Part shown: positions 20,779-27,774 of the stretch, piece after piece
How positions within the stretch are numbered: the stretch's first letter is position 1
Layout: each line of letters opens with the position of its first letter
Assembly: GCA_023266875.1 (NCBI GenBank)
Contig: JAHFOJ010000007.1
Coordinates: 1 to 36,128 of the forward strand
From: Candidatus Giovannonibacteria bacterium
GTDB taxonomy: Bacteria; Patescibacteriota; Minisyncoccia; JACPKW01; UBA11713
DNA: 36,128 bases
Direction: 5' to 3'
The notes under the pieces: model-generated
The model's input: only the letters and a program-made list of their open reading frames with translations
What the model was told of the DNA's origin: nothing
Databases searched by the model: none
Made by a program: the position numbers and the translations under genes

Positions 20779-21165
20779 ATGGGGGCGCTTGATTTCATAG
20801 CTGATTATTTTGCTTGGCACTACTCCGAAGCAATTAAAGACCTCTTAGAAATAGAGAAAAATTTCATGCGTTTTGCCTATCATCTTTTTTCCATGCCCCT
20901 TCTTTTTAAAACTCTTTTTGCCCCAATATTCCGCCTAAATGAAAAGCGCAAGCTCGGATTCGACCTTGAGGCCGCGTCCGAACGATTTATAGTCAACACA
21001 ATAATGAGAATCGTTGGATTTTTTGTGAGACTCATTTTTTTGGTTCTGGGCGCAATAATTGAAATTATTTTGGCGTTCATCTCAATCCCTATTTTATTGT
21101 TTTGGCTTCTTGCCCCAATGGCAGCAATTATTTTATTTTTTGCAGCTTTATTTTATTTAATATAA
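20779..21165 (+). CDS. Small membrane protein paired with a Clp ATPase
   Basis: The 128-residue product starts with a soluble helical part (IADYFAWHYSEAIKDLLEIE), has an amphipathic region near residues 35-60, and ends in two or three hydrophobic helices (IMRIVGFFVRLIFLVLGAII, then FISIPILLFWLLAPMAAIIL). No family is recognised. Its stop overlaps the start of the Clp gene (TAATG), implying coupled translation and a shared membrane complex. Confidence 0.8.
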   Translation: MGALDFIADYFAWHYSEAIKDLLEIEKNFMRFAYHLFSMPLLFKTLFAPIFRLNEKRKLGFDLEAASERFIVNTIMRIVGFFVRLIFLVLGAIIEIILAFISIPILLFWLLAPMAAIILFFAALFYLI

Positions 21166-23654
21166 TGGCAAGAATAAATCGGGAATTCAGGAAAAATAAA
21201 TTCGCAAGCGCTCTTTTCATTGATCAACTTTTTTCAAGTAGGGCGCGGAGGGTCGCCGCCCTTTTGTTGAATGTTTTCATCATCTTCCCGGCATTTGCGC
21301 TTTTATATAAATATATTGCGGAAAACACAACCATTCTGCCGATACCTTATGTGATAAACAGCTCCGTATTCGCCGGAATGATTTATTTGGCATTATCACT
21401 CCGATTTGTAGAGGCAGGCATTGATTGCTTCATCAACTCAAAAACTTACGATAAAAATGGCGATCAGGCGGGCAAAAACTTTTTTGCGCGCTTGAATTAT
21501 TATGCTTCTGAGATAATTTTTTATAGTTTGCAAGAATCGGGAAACGATCCTTCGGCAATTATTGGCGCCGCAAGCAAAACAAAAACTGGTTTAGCGATAC
21601 TTCTTCGAATAGGATTTAATCAAAAAGAATTTCAAACGCTAGAAGAAAATCTGAATGCCGAGAAGATTGCGAGTACAGAGCAATTTTTATCTTCCTTAAG
21701 TATTGCCGTCAAAGATGGATTATGCATTAGCGCCGGCCATATTTTCGTCAGTCTTTACAGGCAAAGCGAACAATTTAGAACCGCCGTCATAAAAAAGAAT
21801 TTATCTGAAGATGATTTATTTGAAATAGCCAGCTGGGCCGAAAAAACAAGCGCCAAAGAAGACATGGATCGCAGATTTTGGAGATGGGAAGTGCTAGGAC
21901 GTGTCCCCGGATTTGCAAGAAATCTAGCATATGGAGAAATCTATTTATTAGAAGAACACGCCCGCGAACTAAGAGAAGAAGCAGAATCAGAAAAACACGA
22001 CCTGATTGGGCGCGCTCGAGAAATTGAATTATTGGAGTCGGCTCTCCTAAAAAATGAAGGGGCAAATATCGTTTTAATCGGCGAGCCCGGATCCGGCAGG
22101 CACGCAGTGCTTTCAGGACTTGTAAAGATGATCTCGGGCGGAAAAATTTTTCCGGAACTAGAACATAAGCGCGTCTTCGAGCTTGATGCCGAATCGCTCG
22201 TGGCATCCGCAAAGACTAAAGGCGAGATTGAAGAATTAATTATCCGCGTGTTTAATGAAGCAGTGCGAGCCGGAAACATTATTTTAGCAATAGATAATTT
22301 CCCTGAATTCACCCGCTCGCTCGCATCGTTCTCAATCAGCGCATCAGAACTACTGGGGCCATATCTAGGCCATTCCTCAATCCACATCATCGCCTTGGCG
22401 GATAAATTAGGAGCGCGGCGCACTCTTGAAACAGAAGCGGGGCTCATGAAATTCTTTGAAAAAGTGGAAATTGCGGATCTAGATCAAAAAACCCTCACTG
22501 AAATTTTAGAAAACATCACGATCGAATACGAAACACGCTCGCAAAATATTATTCTTTTGACATTTGCAGCTCTCAAGAAAATAAGCGAGGGTGCTCTAAA
22601 TTATTTGGTTGAAGGCGGAGTGATAAAACGCGCGATCGAACTTATAGAAGAAACGATAAATGAAGCGCGGCTCAAAAACAAAATTCCCGCAGGGGAAGAA
22701 ATTGTTCTTGAAATTCTTTCAAGAAAAACAAAGATGCCCTTGGGAGAAATTAAGGAAGACGAAAAAGAAAAATTGCTCGTTCTTGAAACGCTGCTTGAAA
22801 AAAGAGTTATTAATCAAAAAGAAGCGACTTCAAAAATCGCGGCCGCCATCAGGCGCGCCAGAGCGGGCATTCGTAACACCTCCCGCCCAATAGGATCATT
22901 CCTATTTTTGGGGCCAACCGGAGTTGGTAAAACGGAAACCGCGAAAACTCTCGCGGAGGTGTATTTTGGAAATGTAGACGCGATGACCCGCTTTGACATG
23001 TCTGAATACCAAGGCGAAGACGGACTTACGCGATTAACCGGGTCTTTCGAAAAAAACGAGCCGGGCATTCTTGCTTCGCGGATGAAAGCAAATCCATACG
23101 GATTGCTTTTGTTCGATGAATTTGAAAAAGCGAATGAAACCGTCCGCAACCTTTTTTTGCAAATTCTTGATGAAGGTTTTTTTTCAGATTACACGGGCTC
23201 AAGAATTAACATGCGAAGTGCGATTATTATCGCAACCTCAAACGCCGGTTCCGAACTCATCTGGCAGATGGTTCAAGCTGGAGAAAACCAAGTCGAGTTG
23301 GATAAAAAAATAAGCGCCCATATCCGAGAAAAAAAGATTTTAAGCCCTGAACTTCTGAACCGCTTTGACGCAGTAGTGATTTTCCGCCCTTTGGCATCAG
23401 ACGCGCTCCTAAAAATTTCACGAATTATGCTGCAAAATCTGCAAGAACGGCTGAAAAAACAAAATTTTATGCTCGAATTATCTGATCCGCTTATAACGGC
23501 CGTAGCCCAAGGCGGATATGACCCTTCTATGGGAGCGCGTCCGATGCAGAGATTCATCCAAGATAAAATTGAGAAAATAATTTCCGAAAAAATTATCAAA
23601 GGCGAAATCGCCCCCGGAAAAACATTTTCTTTTTCCGCAGAAGATTTAAAATAA
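21165..23654 (+). CDS. Membrane-anchored ClpB/ClpC-like AAA+ ATPase
   Basis: ATG at 21165 (829 residues) is preferred over the track's earlier start because it couples to the upstream gene. Two hydrophobic helices lie at ~30-52 and ~62-82, and a Clp-N-like helical region at ~105-230. AAA1 has a degenerate Walker A, GEPGSGRH (306-313), lacking the lysine, and Walker B ending IDN instead of DE. AAA2 is intact: GPTGVGKT (583-590), LLLFDE (647-652), sensor TSN and arginine finger LLNRFD. I see no VGF/IGL loop in the second AAA domain, so ClpP partnership is doubtful. It probably unfolds or disaggregates proteins at the membrane. Confidence 0.88.
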   Translation: MARINREFRKNKFASALFIDQLFSSRARRVAALLLNVFIIFPAFALLYKYIAENTTILPIPYVINSSVFAGMIYLALSLRFVEAGIDCFINSKTYDKNGDQAGKNFFARLNYYASEIIFYSLQESGNDPSAIIGAASKTKTGLAILLRIGFNQKEFQTLEENLNAEKIASTEQFLSSLSIAVKDGLCISAGHIFVSLYRQSEQFRTAVIKKNLSEDDLFEIASWAEKTSAKEDMDRRFWRWEVLGRVPGFARNLAYGEIYLLEEHARELREEAESEKHDLIGRAREIELLESALLKNEGANIVLIGEPGSGRHAVLSGLVKMISGGKIFPELEHKRVFELDAESLVASAKTKGEIEELIIRVFNEAVRAGNIILAIDNFPEFTRSLASFSISASELLGPYLGHSSIHIIALADKLGARRTLETEAGLMKFFEKVEIADLDQKTLTEILENITIEYETRSQNIILLTFAALKKISEGALNYLVEGGVIKRAIELIEETINEARLKNKIPAGEEIVLEILSRKTKMPLGEIKEDEKEKLLVLETLLEKRVINQKEATSKIAAAIRRARAGIRNTSRPIGSFLFLGPTGVGKTETAKTLAEVYFGNVDAMTRFDMSEYQGEDGLTRLTGSFEKNEPGILASRMKANPYGLLLFDEFEKANETVRNLFLQILDEGFFSDYTGSRINMRSAIIIATSNAGSELIWQMVQAGENQVELDKKISAHIREKKILSPELLNRFDAVVIFRPLASDALLKISRIMLQNLQERLKKQNFMLELSDPLITAVAQGGYDPSMGARPMQRFIQDKIEKIISEKIIKGEIAPGKTFSFSAEDLK

Positions 23655-23742: not shown

Positions 23743-24138
23743 TTAAGCCGCATGACCGTGCTTTGCGAGAAGTATTTTTGCTTTCTCAACAACTTCATTC
23801 AGAGGCACGAAACCGAAATAAATAAATTCGTCTGCTCCAAGATCCAGCGCTTTTTTGTCGTCACCAGGGCGATTTAGATGCGAACTGACTATGATTGGCA
23901 ACTCGGCAGTCGGCGGAAATTTTTTTAATTCGCCTATCAGATTAAATCCGTTAATCATCGGCATGTCAATTCCAGTAATAATCAAATTCGGCTTCTCGCT
24001 TTTAATTTTTTCTAATCCTATCTGCCCATTTTCAGCCTCAAGAACCTCGAACCCCTCAGATCGAAATTTTTCGGCATACACCTGTCTCTTAAAACTGTTA
24101 TCGTCAACTATTATGATTTTACATTTCCTTTCAATCAC
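23743..24138 (-). CDS. CheY-like receiver-domain protein lacking the phospho-acceptor
   Basis: A 131-residue stand-alone receiver fold. The acidic pair is present (IIIVDDNS, D12-D13) and so is the switch serine (IIVSSH). The acceptor position reads LIITGIDMP: glycine 56 stands where aspartate is expected, with an aspartate two residues later. The conserved lysine is also missing (FIYFGFVPL). It is probably a phosphorylation-independent adaptor. The start is GTG at 24138, behind AAGGGGAG. No histidine kinase is nearby. Confidence 0.88.
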   Translation of the reverse strand: MIERKCKIIIVDDNSFKRQVYAEKFRSEGFEVLEAENGQIGLEKIKSEKPNLIITGIDMPMINGFNLIGELKKFPPTAELPIIVSSHLNRPGDDKKALDLGADEFIYFGFVPLNEVVEKAKILLAKHGHAA

Positions 24139-24748: not shown

Positions 24749-25237
24749 TTAAGTGTGCCTATCCGCGAGCACAAACGCTCCAAACGAATAGGGTTTGATC
24801 ACCGCTTCGAATCCATGCCCTTTGACCATGCCCACAACAGCGTCAATCAAATCTTTTGTCGGGCCGTTTAATCCTACGTCCAAGTGTACGGAAATTTTGC
24901 CGTCCCAAAAAAAGTCATCGCCCAAATATTCGCGAAGCCGCGACCTTAATTCCTGTGTAAAAGTAATAGAATACATGGTTTCTTTATAAATCCGGTCGCG
25001 AAGCGTTTTCATCGGAACTTCTTCCGAGCGCGTCCAATAATATCTTCCGCCGTTTCCAACGCGCAAAATGCCGACCGCCGTCACAAAACGCACCTCGGAG
25101 GCCGCTTTGGAATCGGTACCTACAACAATTTTATATTCCCGCTCGGGCTTTTCATTTATAAAGGAGACTAACTCAAAAACCAGCTCATCAAAAGTAATCG
25201 TGCGCGTATTTGAAAAAAATCGGACGCTTTCCGACAT
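24749..25237 (-). CDS. YkuK-like (DUF458) RNase H-fold protein
   Basis: The 162-residue product matches the DUF458/YkuK pattern: KIVVGTDSKA with a catalytic-type aspartate near the N-terminus, HLDVGLNGPTKDLIDAVVGM, and the C-terminal KPYSFGAFVLADRHT. The family has a predicted RNase H-like fold; its cellular role is poorly known. The ATG abuts the stop of the upstream exonuclease-WYL gene, suggesting a functional pair in nucleic-acid metabolism. Confidence 0.88.
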   Translation of the reverse strand: MSESVRFFSNTRTITFDELVFELVSFINEKPEREYKIVVGTDSKAASEVRFVTAVGILRVGNGGRYYWTRSEEVPMKTLRDRIYKETMYSITFTQELRSRLREYLGDDFFWDGKISVHLDVGLNGPTKDLIDAVVGMVKGHGFEAVIKPYSFGAFVLADRHT

Positions 25238-26047
25238 TTAGATAAGTCTCCCCTGCAAATCGGCTTCTGTGTTATAATTATTCAAAGTCAGCTTCGCTTT
25301 AAGAACGCGGTCAATTTTAAAAACTCTAAGCCCGCCTCGCAAATGGCAAAAGCCCTCGAATGAATCGGGCCCGATATCATATATATCCACGAGCCGCGTG
25401 TTGCGAAGCGTGTTGGAAGATTCTGCCGCGCGAGTTATGTAGTCAATTTCTACAGATTTTCGCGCGCTAAGCGCCTCATTCAAAACCTGTCTCACGTTCT
25501 GGGCTTCATCCATTCGCCATTTAACCGGAATAGAAATTTTATCCATTTGATCCCGTGAAAAAAAAGTTACATAACCGTTTTTCTTTCCAAATTCATAAAG
25601 ATCCCGAGTCAGGCGGACGTCATCTGTGCAATAATTTTTAATTTCATCAATTTTCCCCTCGCGAAACCACTTGATCGCATCAAGCCCATGCGCGGATTTT
25701 TTCGCGTTAATGGTAGTCTGGCATAAGTTGTCCAAGGATACCCTAAATCCGGCATTCGCGACAACCTCGTCCATCAAATCAAGAGTCGGCAAAGTTTTCG
25801 TATCAATCTTTACATATGGCGCAAGCACCGGATAGTCGAAATGTCTGATATTAAAACCTATAACTAAATTTGCCTCGCTAAGCATTTTTTCGAAGTGCCC
25901 TAGATCTTTTTCTTCAAAGGAAAAAAATTTGTCGCGGTTATAAGAATATGCCGAAAGAATAGAAACGCCGAGCAAATCAAATTTATCACGCCCTCCGACT
26001 TCAGCAAATTCTTTTTTGGTTTCTAGGTCAAAAACGATCGTGTCCAT
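25238..26047 (-). CDS. DnaQ/RNase H-like 3'-5' exonuclease fused to a WYL-like domain
   Basis: Residues 1-155 form a DEDD-type exonuclease fold: D7 and E9 (VFDLETK), D71 (FNIRHFDYP) and the YCTDDV motif at 139-144. Residues ~187-255 resemble a WYL domain: EIDYITR, then FEGFCHLRGGLRVFKIDRVL, the aromatic and arginine pattern used for nucleic-acid or nucleotide ligand sensing in defence and repair regulators. The fusion suggests a ligand-controlled nuclease. The gene is directly followed by the YkuK-like gene. The WYL assignment is by pattern only. Confidence 0.8.
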   Translation of the reverse strand: MDTIVFDLETKKEFAEVGGRDKFDLLGVSILSAYSYNRDKFFSFEEKDLGHFEKMLSEANLVIGFNIRHFDYPVLAPYVKIDTKTLPTLDLMDEVVANAGFRVSLDNLCQTTINAKKSAHGLDAIKWFREGKIDEIKNYCTDDVRLTRDLYEFGKKNGYVTFFSRDQMDKISIPVKWRMDEAQNVRQVLNEALSARKSVEIDYITRAAESSNTLRNTRLVDIYDIGPDSFEGFCHLRGGLRVFKIDRVLKAKLTLNNYNTEADLQGRLI

Positions 26048-26050
26048 AAA

Positions 26051-26461
26051 TTAAAAAGGAAGATCTATTGAATACGCGCCCGCGCCAAGAAAAATAAGCG
26101 AAAGCGCTATGGCTAGCAGCGCTAAATCAAATTCATAACCGTCCACAAATCCACGCTTATACTTAACTTTCCAAATAGCGACAAGCATATCTATCGAAAT
26201 CAAAATGGCGACGGGCTGGACAAAAAATCCTATCAAAAGCAGACTGCCGCCTCCAAATTCAACAAGACCCACAACCCAAACCCAAAACTTCGCCGGCTTA
26301 ATTCCAACCGATTCAAAAAAGGCAACGGTTTCAGGAAAATTCTTGAAAAGTTTTGGATAGCCGTGAGCTATAAATACAGCCGCCAATACAAGACGCAAAA
26401 TGAGGGGAGCAAATTCAGAATAATACAAAAGTAGAGGAAATAAATTGACCATTGCCTCCAT
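26051..26461 (-). CDS. DoxX family membrane protein
   Basis: The 136-residue product has four hydrophobic segments with the DoxX pattern: LILRLVLAAVFIAHGYPKLF, VVGLVEFGGGSLLLIGFFVQ and a C-terminal ALSLIFLGAGAYSID. The family includes membrane proteins linked to redox and oxidative-stress functions. It lies 3 bp upstream of the exonuclease-WYL gene. Confidence 0.88.
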   Translation of the reverse strand: MEAMVNLFPLLLYYSEFAPLILRLVLAAVFIAHGYPKLFKNFPETVAFFESVGIKPAKFWVWVVGLVEFGGGSLLLIGFFVQPVAILISIDMLVAIWKVKYKRGFVDGYEFDLALLAIALSLIFLGAGAYSIDLPF

Positions 26462-26856: not shown

Positions 26857-27774
26857 ATGCCTAACGAGAAAAAAAGTGCGAATGGTGGGGGCGGTGCTTT
26901 TTCCGGAGACGCTGGAATATTTTTGTTTTTAATAATCATTGCCGCGCTTGCGATATCCGTTAAAGGATCAAATCTTTCGCAAAAAAATGGGATTAATATT
27001 GGATCGCCCACTTCCGTCGGAACAGTTGAAGACAATATTTCAAAAAAAAATAAGCCGTCGAGTTTCTTGTCATCAAACAGCGCACCTAATTTCCAAAGCG
27101 GGCAATCAAGTGCTCAAACTGCTTCCGCACCGGAATCGAGTTTTATGATCTTTGAATCCAGCGCCAGAAACGCGGACCCAAACCAAGAATATATTGATAT
27201 ATACGCCGTCATAACAAACGGGAAACCCGTGCCAATGAGCAGCTGGACAGTTGAAAATTCAAAGGGAAATAAATTTATAATTGGCGGCGCGAGCTATCTC
27301 GCCCGCGCCGGAGAAATAACTTCCGAGTCAGGAATTTTACTCGCTCCGGGAGAAATACTCCATATTATAACCGGAAGTTCGCCTCTCGGGTTTAATTTTC
27401 GCACGAATATATGCACTGGATATTTCGACCAATTTCATAATTTTTATCCATCCCTTCGCGAAAATTGCCCGCGACCCGAAACTGAAAATTCGGCTCAAAA
27501 TCTGGACAATGTTTGCTATAATTTTTTGAAAAATTTCCCCAGATGCCGCACGCCAATTAATGTTGCGAACCAAACTACGCTTGACTGTCAAAATTACGTA
27601 AATCAAGAATTAAGCTACACAAAATGCGTGGATACTCATAGAAATGATAAGGATTTTTGGGGGAATGAGTGGTATCTGTATCTTGGCCGAACTTCAGAGA
27701 TTTGGAAATACGAAAGGGAAACCGTCACACTCCGCGACCAAGCCGGAAAAATCGTGGCTAGTTATTCGTATTAA
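26857..27774 (+). CDS. Lamin-tail-like (LTD) domain protein, membrane-anchored
   Basis: The 305-residue product has a glycine-rich start, one N-terminal hydrophobic helix (AGIFLFLIIIAALAISV) and a serine/glutamine-rich linker. The extracellular part has the LTD-like pattern: DPNQEYIDIYAVITNGKPVP, MSSWTVENSKGNKFIIGG and LLAPGEILHIITG. The C-terminal third has six cysteines (CYNFLKNFPRC, LDCQNYV, TKC) and could be disulfide-linked. It is probably displayed on the cell surface. Such proteins are common in CPR genomes. Confidence 0.75.
   Translation: MPNEKKSANGGGGAFSGDAGIFLFLIIIAALAISVKGSNLSQKNGINIGSPTSVGTVEDNISKKNKPSSFLSSNSAPNFQSGQSSAQTASAPESSFMIFESSARNADPNQEYIDIYAVITNGKPVPMSSWTVENSKGNKFIIGGASYLARAGEITSESGILLAPGEILHIITGSSPLGFNFRTNICTGYFDQFHNFYPSLRENCPRPETENSAQNLDNVCYNFLKNFPRCRTPINVANQTTLDCQNYVNQELSYTKCVDTHRNDKDFWGNEWYLYLGRTSEIWKYERETVTLRDQAGKIVASYSY

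Follow-up and report, generated by a model that had tools for sequence, protein, structure and literature searches.

In the 36,128-nt stretch of a Candidatus Giovannonibacteria genome analysed here (the window), one gene encodes a 269-aa protein in which a DEDDy-type 3'-5' exonuclease core is fused to a WYL domain and ends in a peptide of the type that binds the β sliding clamp. The protein probably functions as a clamp-tethered, ssDNA-binding repair exonuclease that works together with the YkuK-family protein encoded next to it, a reading to which we give a probability of about 0.6. The general domain combination was already mentioned in 2014 (PMC4012209), and the fusion described here is real and recurrent. 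The genome that carries it amounts to 684 kb and is 91.5% complete. Patescibacteria have reduced genomes and their DNA repair is poorly known, so that a lineage-specific client of the clamp would be informative about it; a literature search returned no paper linking Patescibacteria to repair, an exonuclease and the sliding clamp, or WYL to DEDD.

The exonuclease core

The gene is a complete open reading frame on the minus strand, from ATG to stop (25238..26047). Stop codons break the plus strand across the same interval, and the strand had been missing from the first-pass annotation. The exonuclease core occupies approximately residues 1–165 (25553..26047, minus strand) and harbors the catalytic set D7, E9, D71, Y139 and D143, with the tyrosine lying within a YxxxD motif; all five residues are invariant in the 36 fused homologues. 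Three Pfam families match this part of the protein above their cut-offs, namely RNase_H_2 (31.5 bits, cut-off 22), DNA_pol_B_exo2 (31.2 bits, cut-off 24) and DNA_pol_A_exo1 (27.1 bits, cut-off 23.6). The AlphaFold2 model of the whole protein has a mean pLDDT of 85.7, and the fold of its core resembles the proofreading exonuclease domains of the T7 and RB69 polymerases. Both the sequence and the model indicate a member of the DnaQ-like superfamily of the DEDDy type, for which exonuclease activity is predicted.

The WYL domain

The WYL domain extends over approximately residues 187–253 (25289..25489, minus strand). The first-pass annotation had read the string FEGFCHLRGGLRVFKIDRVL, which corresponds to residues 230–249, as a WYL signature fused to a nuclease, and had pointed to a profile search and to structure prediction as the ways to verify it; both bear the fusion out. 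PF13280 matches residues 187–252 with 25.8 bits against a curated cut-off of 21.8, and a profile built from 34 fused homologues and run against all PDB sequences has PafC, PafBC, Pif1-WYL helicases and CapW among its matches. In the AlphaFold2 model this part of the protein matches PafBC, CapW and BrxR, which share the Sm-like β-barrel fold. As 36 loci carry the fusion and 31 of the 34 fused members scanned match Pfam WYL individually, it is neither an assembly nor a chance artefact. The literal W-Y-L triplet is absent from the domain, which does not disqualify it, because these letters lack strong conservation across the family according to the 2014 survey (PMC4012209). A six-frame search of the genome with the Pfam WYL model alone gave no match at E 0.001, a sensitivity limit of that particular search, since the protein-level search clears the cut-off.

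The groove of the domain is basic, being formed by R218, R237, R241, K244 and R247, and its residues are highly conserved among the fused homologues: Y203 is found in 36 of 36, F243 in 35, and R218, R237 and R241 in 33 each. Four of the basic residues (R237, R241, K244 and R247) align with R491, R495, R498 and R501 of Pif1, which are reported contacts to ssDNA (PMC9964779). The same four have the spacing of R204, R208, R211 and R214 of PafB, a match by spacing and not by alignment; these PafB residues are required for ssDNA binding (PMC11804915). The groove residues thereby favour a single-stranded nucleic acid over a small molecule used in signalling, and the simplest interpretation is that the WYL domain most likely holds on to the ssDNA substrate. 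A small ligand might conceivably regulate the protein through this domain, although nothing in this analysis supports it.

The C-terminal peptide

The protein ends in QGRLI (residues 265–269; 25241..25255, minus strand), a peptide of the β-clamp-binding type with a degenerate last position, which the first-pass annotation had missed and for which the family consensus is Q[A/S]SLF. An ending of the form Q-x-x-[L/I]-[F/L/I] is present in 69 of the 100 homologues, compared with 5 among 671 further ORFs from these loci, and in nearly all of the 69 it constitutes the final five residues. QASLF, QSSLF and QAALF are the commonest forms. With their tails shuffled, the 100 homologues yielded 2.2 motif matches on average and never more than 8, figures that describe the contrast and are not a probability, as homologues are not independent samples. 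The peptide is kept whether or not the WYL domain is present, and it is absent from 31 of the 100 homologues, including one fused to a helicase.

The published consensus for clamp binding is QL[S/D]LF or Q-phi-x-[L/M][F/L] (PMC13254535). This strict form fits 24 of the 69 tails, whereas the family consensus Q[A/S]SLF fits it loosely and the QGRLI of the window is a weak match. The DnaE of the same genome has QDSLF internally, where such a site is expected, in agreement with a QxSLF consensus. The conservation of the QxxL[F/L/I] tail leads us to infer that the exonuclease family is most likely tethered to the β sliding clamp. In the window's copy, the QGRLI region has a pLDDT below 50, and binding may be weak because the last residue is isoleucine rather than the canonical phenylalanine or leucine.

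Distribution and evolution of the fusion

The exonuclease was found in 113 of the 380 genomes of a phylum sample and, by profile and counting weak matches, in 240 of the 384 genomes of a class sample. Its commonest form is about 195 aa long and lacks WYL. Full-length exonuclease-WYL fusions make up 36 of the 100 homologues studied, from Patescibacteria-like genomes, and are scattered across many families. Mapping the presence or absence of WYL onto a tree built from the 100 cores requires 11 changes of state, and well-supported branches force no fewer than 4 of them; the domain has therefore been gained and/or lost repeatedly. A close homologue (L032) belongs to Candidatus Niyogibacteria, and in relatives of this type the WYL domain is missing and the last residues, QFRLI, are retained. 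WYL is an optional, dispensable add-on, which varies against a stable background of core, C-terminal peptide and neighbouring YkuK. Its repeated gain and loss constitutes a natural experiment on what it contributes, in a protein where it stands between the catalytic core and the likely clamp tether as an accessory of an enzyme rather than as part of a regulator. The exonuclease itself is absent from several sibling genomes, and hence it is not essential.

No fusion was present in plasmid and phage records, where WYL proteins and polymerase exonuclease domains turned up only on their own, and viral contigs carry distant, core-only relatives of the exonuclease. Elsewhere, a weak match to the WYL part of the query lies inside a 538-aa open frame (G298:C17:29975-30196), possibly a Pif1-WYL helicase of the same phylum.

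Pairing with YkuK

Directly downstream of the exonuclease, and on the same minus strand, lies the gene of a 162-aa YkuK-family RNase H-like protein (24749..25237; PF04308, 145.1 bits, E 1.9e-42). It begins at 25237, the next base after the exonuclease stop codon, so that the abutting YkuK-like gene of the first-pass annotation is there as described. The residues D42, E86, D120 and D159 of YkuK are invariant in the 68 homologues compared, an acidic set that fits a catalytically active enzyme of the RNase H-like type. YkuK, also known as DUF458, has been predicted to be RNase H-like since 2005. A superfamily survey groups it with RNase H1 (PMC3985635), and a literature search found no paper assigning it a function.

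Positions of both YkuK and a strong exonuclease match are listed for 73 genomes of the class sample, and in 71 of these the two genes lie side by side on the same strand. The exonuclease comes first in 48 of the 71 and YkuK in 23 (L098, L104, L112 and L114 among them), and in all of the latter the exonuclease falls below the length threshold for a WYL fusion. The median gap between the two genes is 31 nt for fused genes and 2 nt for unfused ones. Since two gene orders exist, the pair has been either reassembled or preserved while its order changed, and this speaks for function over inherited position. YkuK also occurs in 75 genomes with no strong exonuclease match. The adjacency shows that the two genes are linked and points to a real functional coupling; a joint reaction of the two enzymes would be a further step. 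Such constant proximity to a repair-type exonuclease, in both orders, provides a direct hypothesis that makes the role of YkuK testable.

Genomic neighbourhood

Directly upstream of the exonuclease there is a gene for a DoxX-family membrane protein (26051..26461, minus strand; PF07681, 83.5 bits), which recurs in the cluster, with 26 of the compared loci having it, but is not obligatory there. Four sibling genomes have 3–7 nt between DoxX and YkuK; in these the exonuclease is cleanly absent, and the gap holds no remnant of it. In other lineages, the exonuclease is found downstream of XseA-XseB (exonuclease VII), or between RmuC and a PD-(D/E)XK nuclease, and in some relatives MutM follows YkuK (L085, L086, L099). 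A 938-aa protein at L034:2712-5528 has an N-terminal MrfA-type helicase and a C-terminal part related to the exonuclease. XseA-XseB, RmuC, PD-(D/E)XK, MutM and the MrfA-type fusion are DNA-repair associations.

The L034 protein comprises DEAD, Helicase_C, an HRQ1-type winged helix and MZB. It resembles MrfAB joined into one chain, its nuclease being of the DEDDy type, and it lacks the clamp-type tail. It prompted the question of whether the exonuclease belongs to MrfB/YprB, which was rejected: a tyrosine replaces the DEDDh histidine of MrfB/YprB, the Pfam scan of the 269-aa protein gave no TPR match and has WYL in that place, and no MrfA helicase was found in its own genome. PF09369 occurs in 2 of the 384 class genomes.

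Other genes of the window were also noted. At 21102-23654 (plus strand) lies an 850-aa Clp-type AAA+ ATPase with AAA_2 and ClpB_D2-small and a hydrophobic N-terminal region, apparently membrane-anchored. A stand-alone response-regulator receiver domain is encoded downstream of YkuK (23743-24138, minus strand), and siblings L124 and L125 likewise have it close to YkuK. The divergent gene at 26857-27774 (plus strand) encodes an exported-looking protein that is conserved beside DoxX-exonuclease-YkuK in relatives (cluster c5, 17 loci). With DoxX upstream and MutM near YkuK in relatives, a link to oxidative damage is conceivable.

Proposed function and alternatives

The proposed model is that the protein acts in DNA maintenance as a 3'-5' exonuclease whose core resembles polymerase proofreading domains. 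The WYL domain, placed between core and tail, would bind ssDNA and feed or hold the substrate strand, as it does in Pif1 helicases, a role suggested by its basic residues; it is an optional add-on that may raise or regulate the engagement of ssDNA. The C-terminal peptide, on a flexible linker, would tether the enzyme to the β clamp, as its conservation in the family suggests and perhaps weakly in the window's copy, thus placing the exonuclease at sites of replication or repair. There it would act in the same process as YkuK, whose acidic active site is intact, a linkage that comes from adjacency. A more far-reaching proposal, which we hold only tentatively, is that the two proteins constitute an undescribed two-nuclease module of Patescibacteria, in which a DEDDy exonuclease, tethered to the clamp and optionally equipped with a WYL domain that senses ssDNA, would join YkuK in processing the gaps, flaps or RNA-DNA hybrids that replication leaves behind. 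If true, this would be the first functional partner for the DUF458/YkuK family.

RNA remains a conceivable substrate, because DEDDy enzymes include exoribonucleases. The protein could be an RNA-processing 3'-5' exoribonuclease of the RNase D or NrnC type, with WYL gripping RNA and with YkuK acting on RNA or RNA-DNA hybrids. The DEDDy signature is common to RNase D and NrnC (PMC11194089), the 2014 survey lists WYL together with a '3'->5' exoRNase' (PMC4012209), and the grouping of YkuK with RNase H1 (PMC3985635) would also suit this reading. It is nevertheless unlikely, as by Pfam and by fold the protein matches DNA-polymerase exonuclease domains and the RNase_H_2 family, the neighbours and the helicase fusion belong to DNA repair, and the tail is of the clamp type. 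A role of WYL as a mere dimerisation or spacer module, with no part in nucleic-acid binding, would explain why it is repeatedly missing from close homologues and why the letters W-Y-L are themselves unconserved, yet it is exactly the groove residues (Y203, R218, R237, R241 and F243) that are strongly conserved, which makes this role improbable.

The polymerase-type fold and the clamp-type tail could also indicate a proofreader of replication that stands in for DnaQ epsilon and, like epsilon, is tethered to the clamp, and proteins of the RNase_T family are indeed absent from 92 of the 142 class genomes searched. However, the same genome has an RNase_T-family protein, its DnaE PHP domain starts with an intact-looking HxH motif, and the exonuclease is absent from siblings. 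This replacement was rejected, as there is no mutual exclusion with PF00929 across genomes (both present in 23, exonuclease only in 31, RNase_T only in 18, neither in 49), and we regard it as very improbable. Very improbable, too, is the module envisaged in the first-pass annotation, a nuclease gated by a small molecule that would be the effector in a defence system against phages, YkuK being its second nuclease. WYL domains are common in regulators of defence, and the WYL models of PADLOC match residues 175–262 of the fusion protein. Beyond WYL itself and generic AAA+ matches (the Clp-type ATPase), however, PADLOC found no defence system among ten window proteins, and the survey of gene neighbourhoods that had been suggested found no defence genes: the neighbours elsewhere are DNA-repair nucleases and housekeeping genes, in a context that is syntenic across many families. 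The family is spread over many lineages of one class, the fusion has no plasmid copy, the relatives on viral contigs are distant and core-only, and WYL is dispensable. The defence module was accordingly rejected and is the least probable of these alternatives; what stands of that earlier proposal is the exonuclease-WYL fusion and the pairing with YkuK, without the link to phage defence.

Comparison with known systems

DnaQ epsilon carries a clamp-binding peptide after its exonuclease, and the likeness to the repair exonuclease proposed here lies in this order, a DEDD exonuclease followed by a clamp-type peptide; DnaQ, however, is DEDDh, whereas the present enzyme is DEDDy, matches other Pfam families and is optional. 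The fusions of WYL with a 3'->5' exoRNase mentioned by Makarova et al. in 2014 (PMC4012209) show the same broad domain combination, noted in one sentence of a text that describes neither a sequence nor a lineage for it, and neither a YkuK partner nor a tail of the clamp type. PafBC and DriD, which are WYL regulators activated by ssDNA (PMC11804915, PMC12340889), share the WYL fold and its basic groove, although they are HTH transcription factors and the exonuclease-WYL protein is a nuclease with no HTH. MrfB/YprB, which acts with MrfA/YprA in mitomycin repair in B. subtilis (PMC11194089), is likewise an RNase_H_2-type 3'-5' exonuclease, and the L034 homologue is fused to an MrfA-type helicase; MrfB, in contrast, is DEDDh and has TPR, where the DEDDy exonuclease has WYL or nothing. 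The Pif1 helicases DdPif1, SsPif1 and TePif1 (PMC9964779) are helicases and not exonucleases, and no clamp-type tail is reported for Pif1, but they also carry WYL at the C-terminal side of an enzyme that acts on ssDNA and lacks HTH, and their four basic groove residues align with those of the exonuclease-WYL protein.
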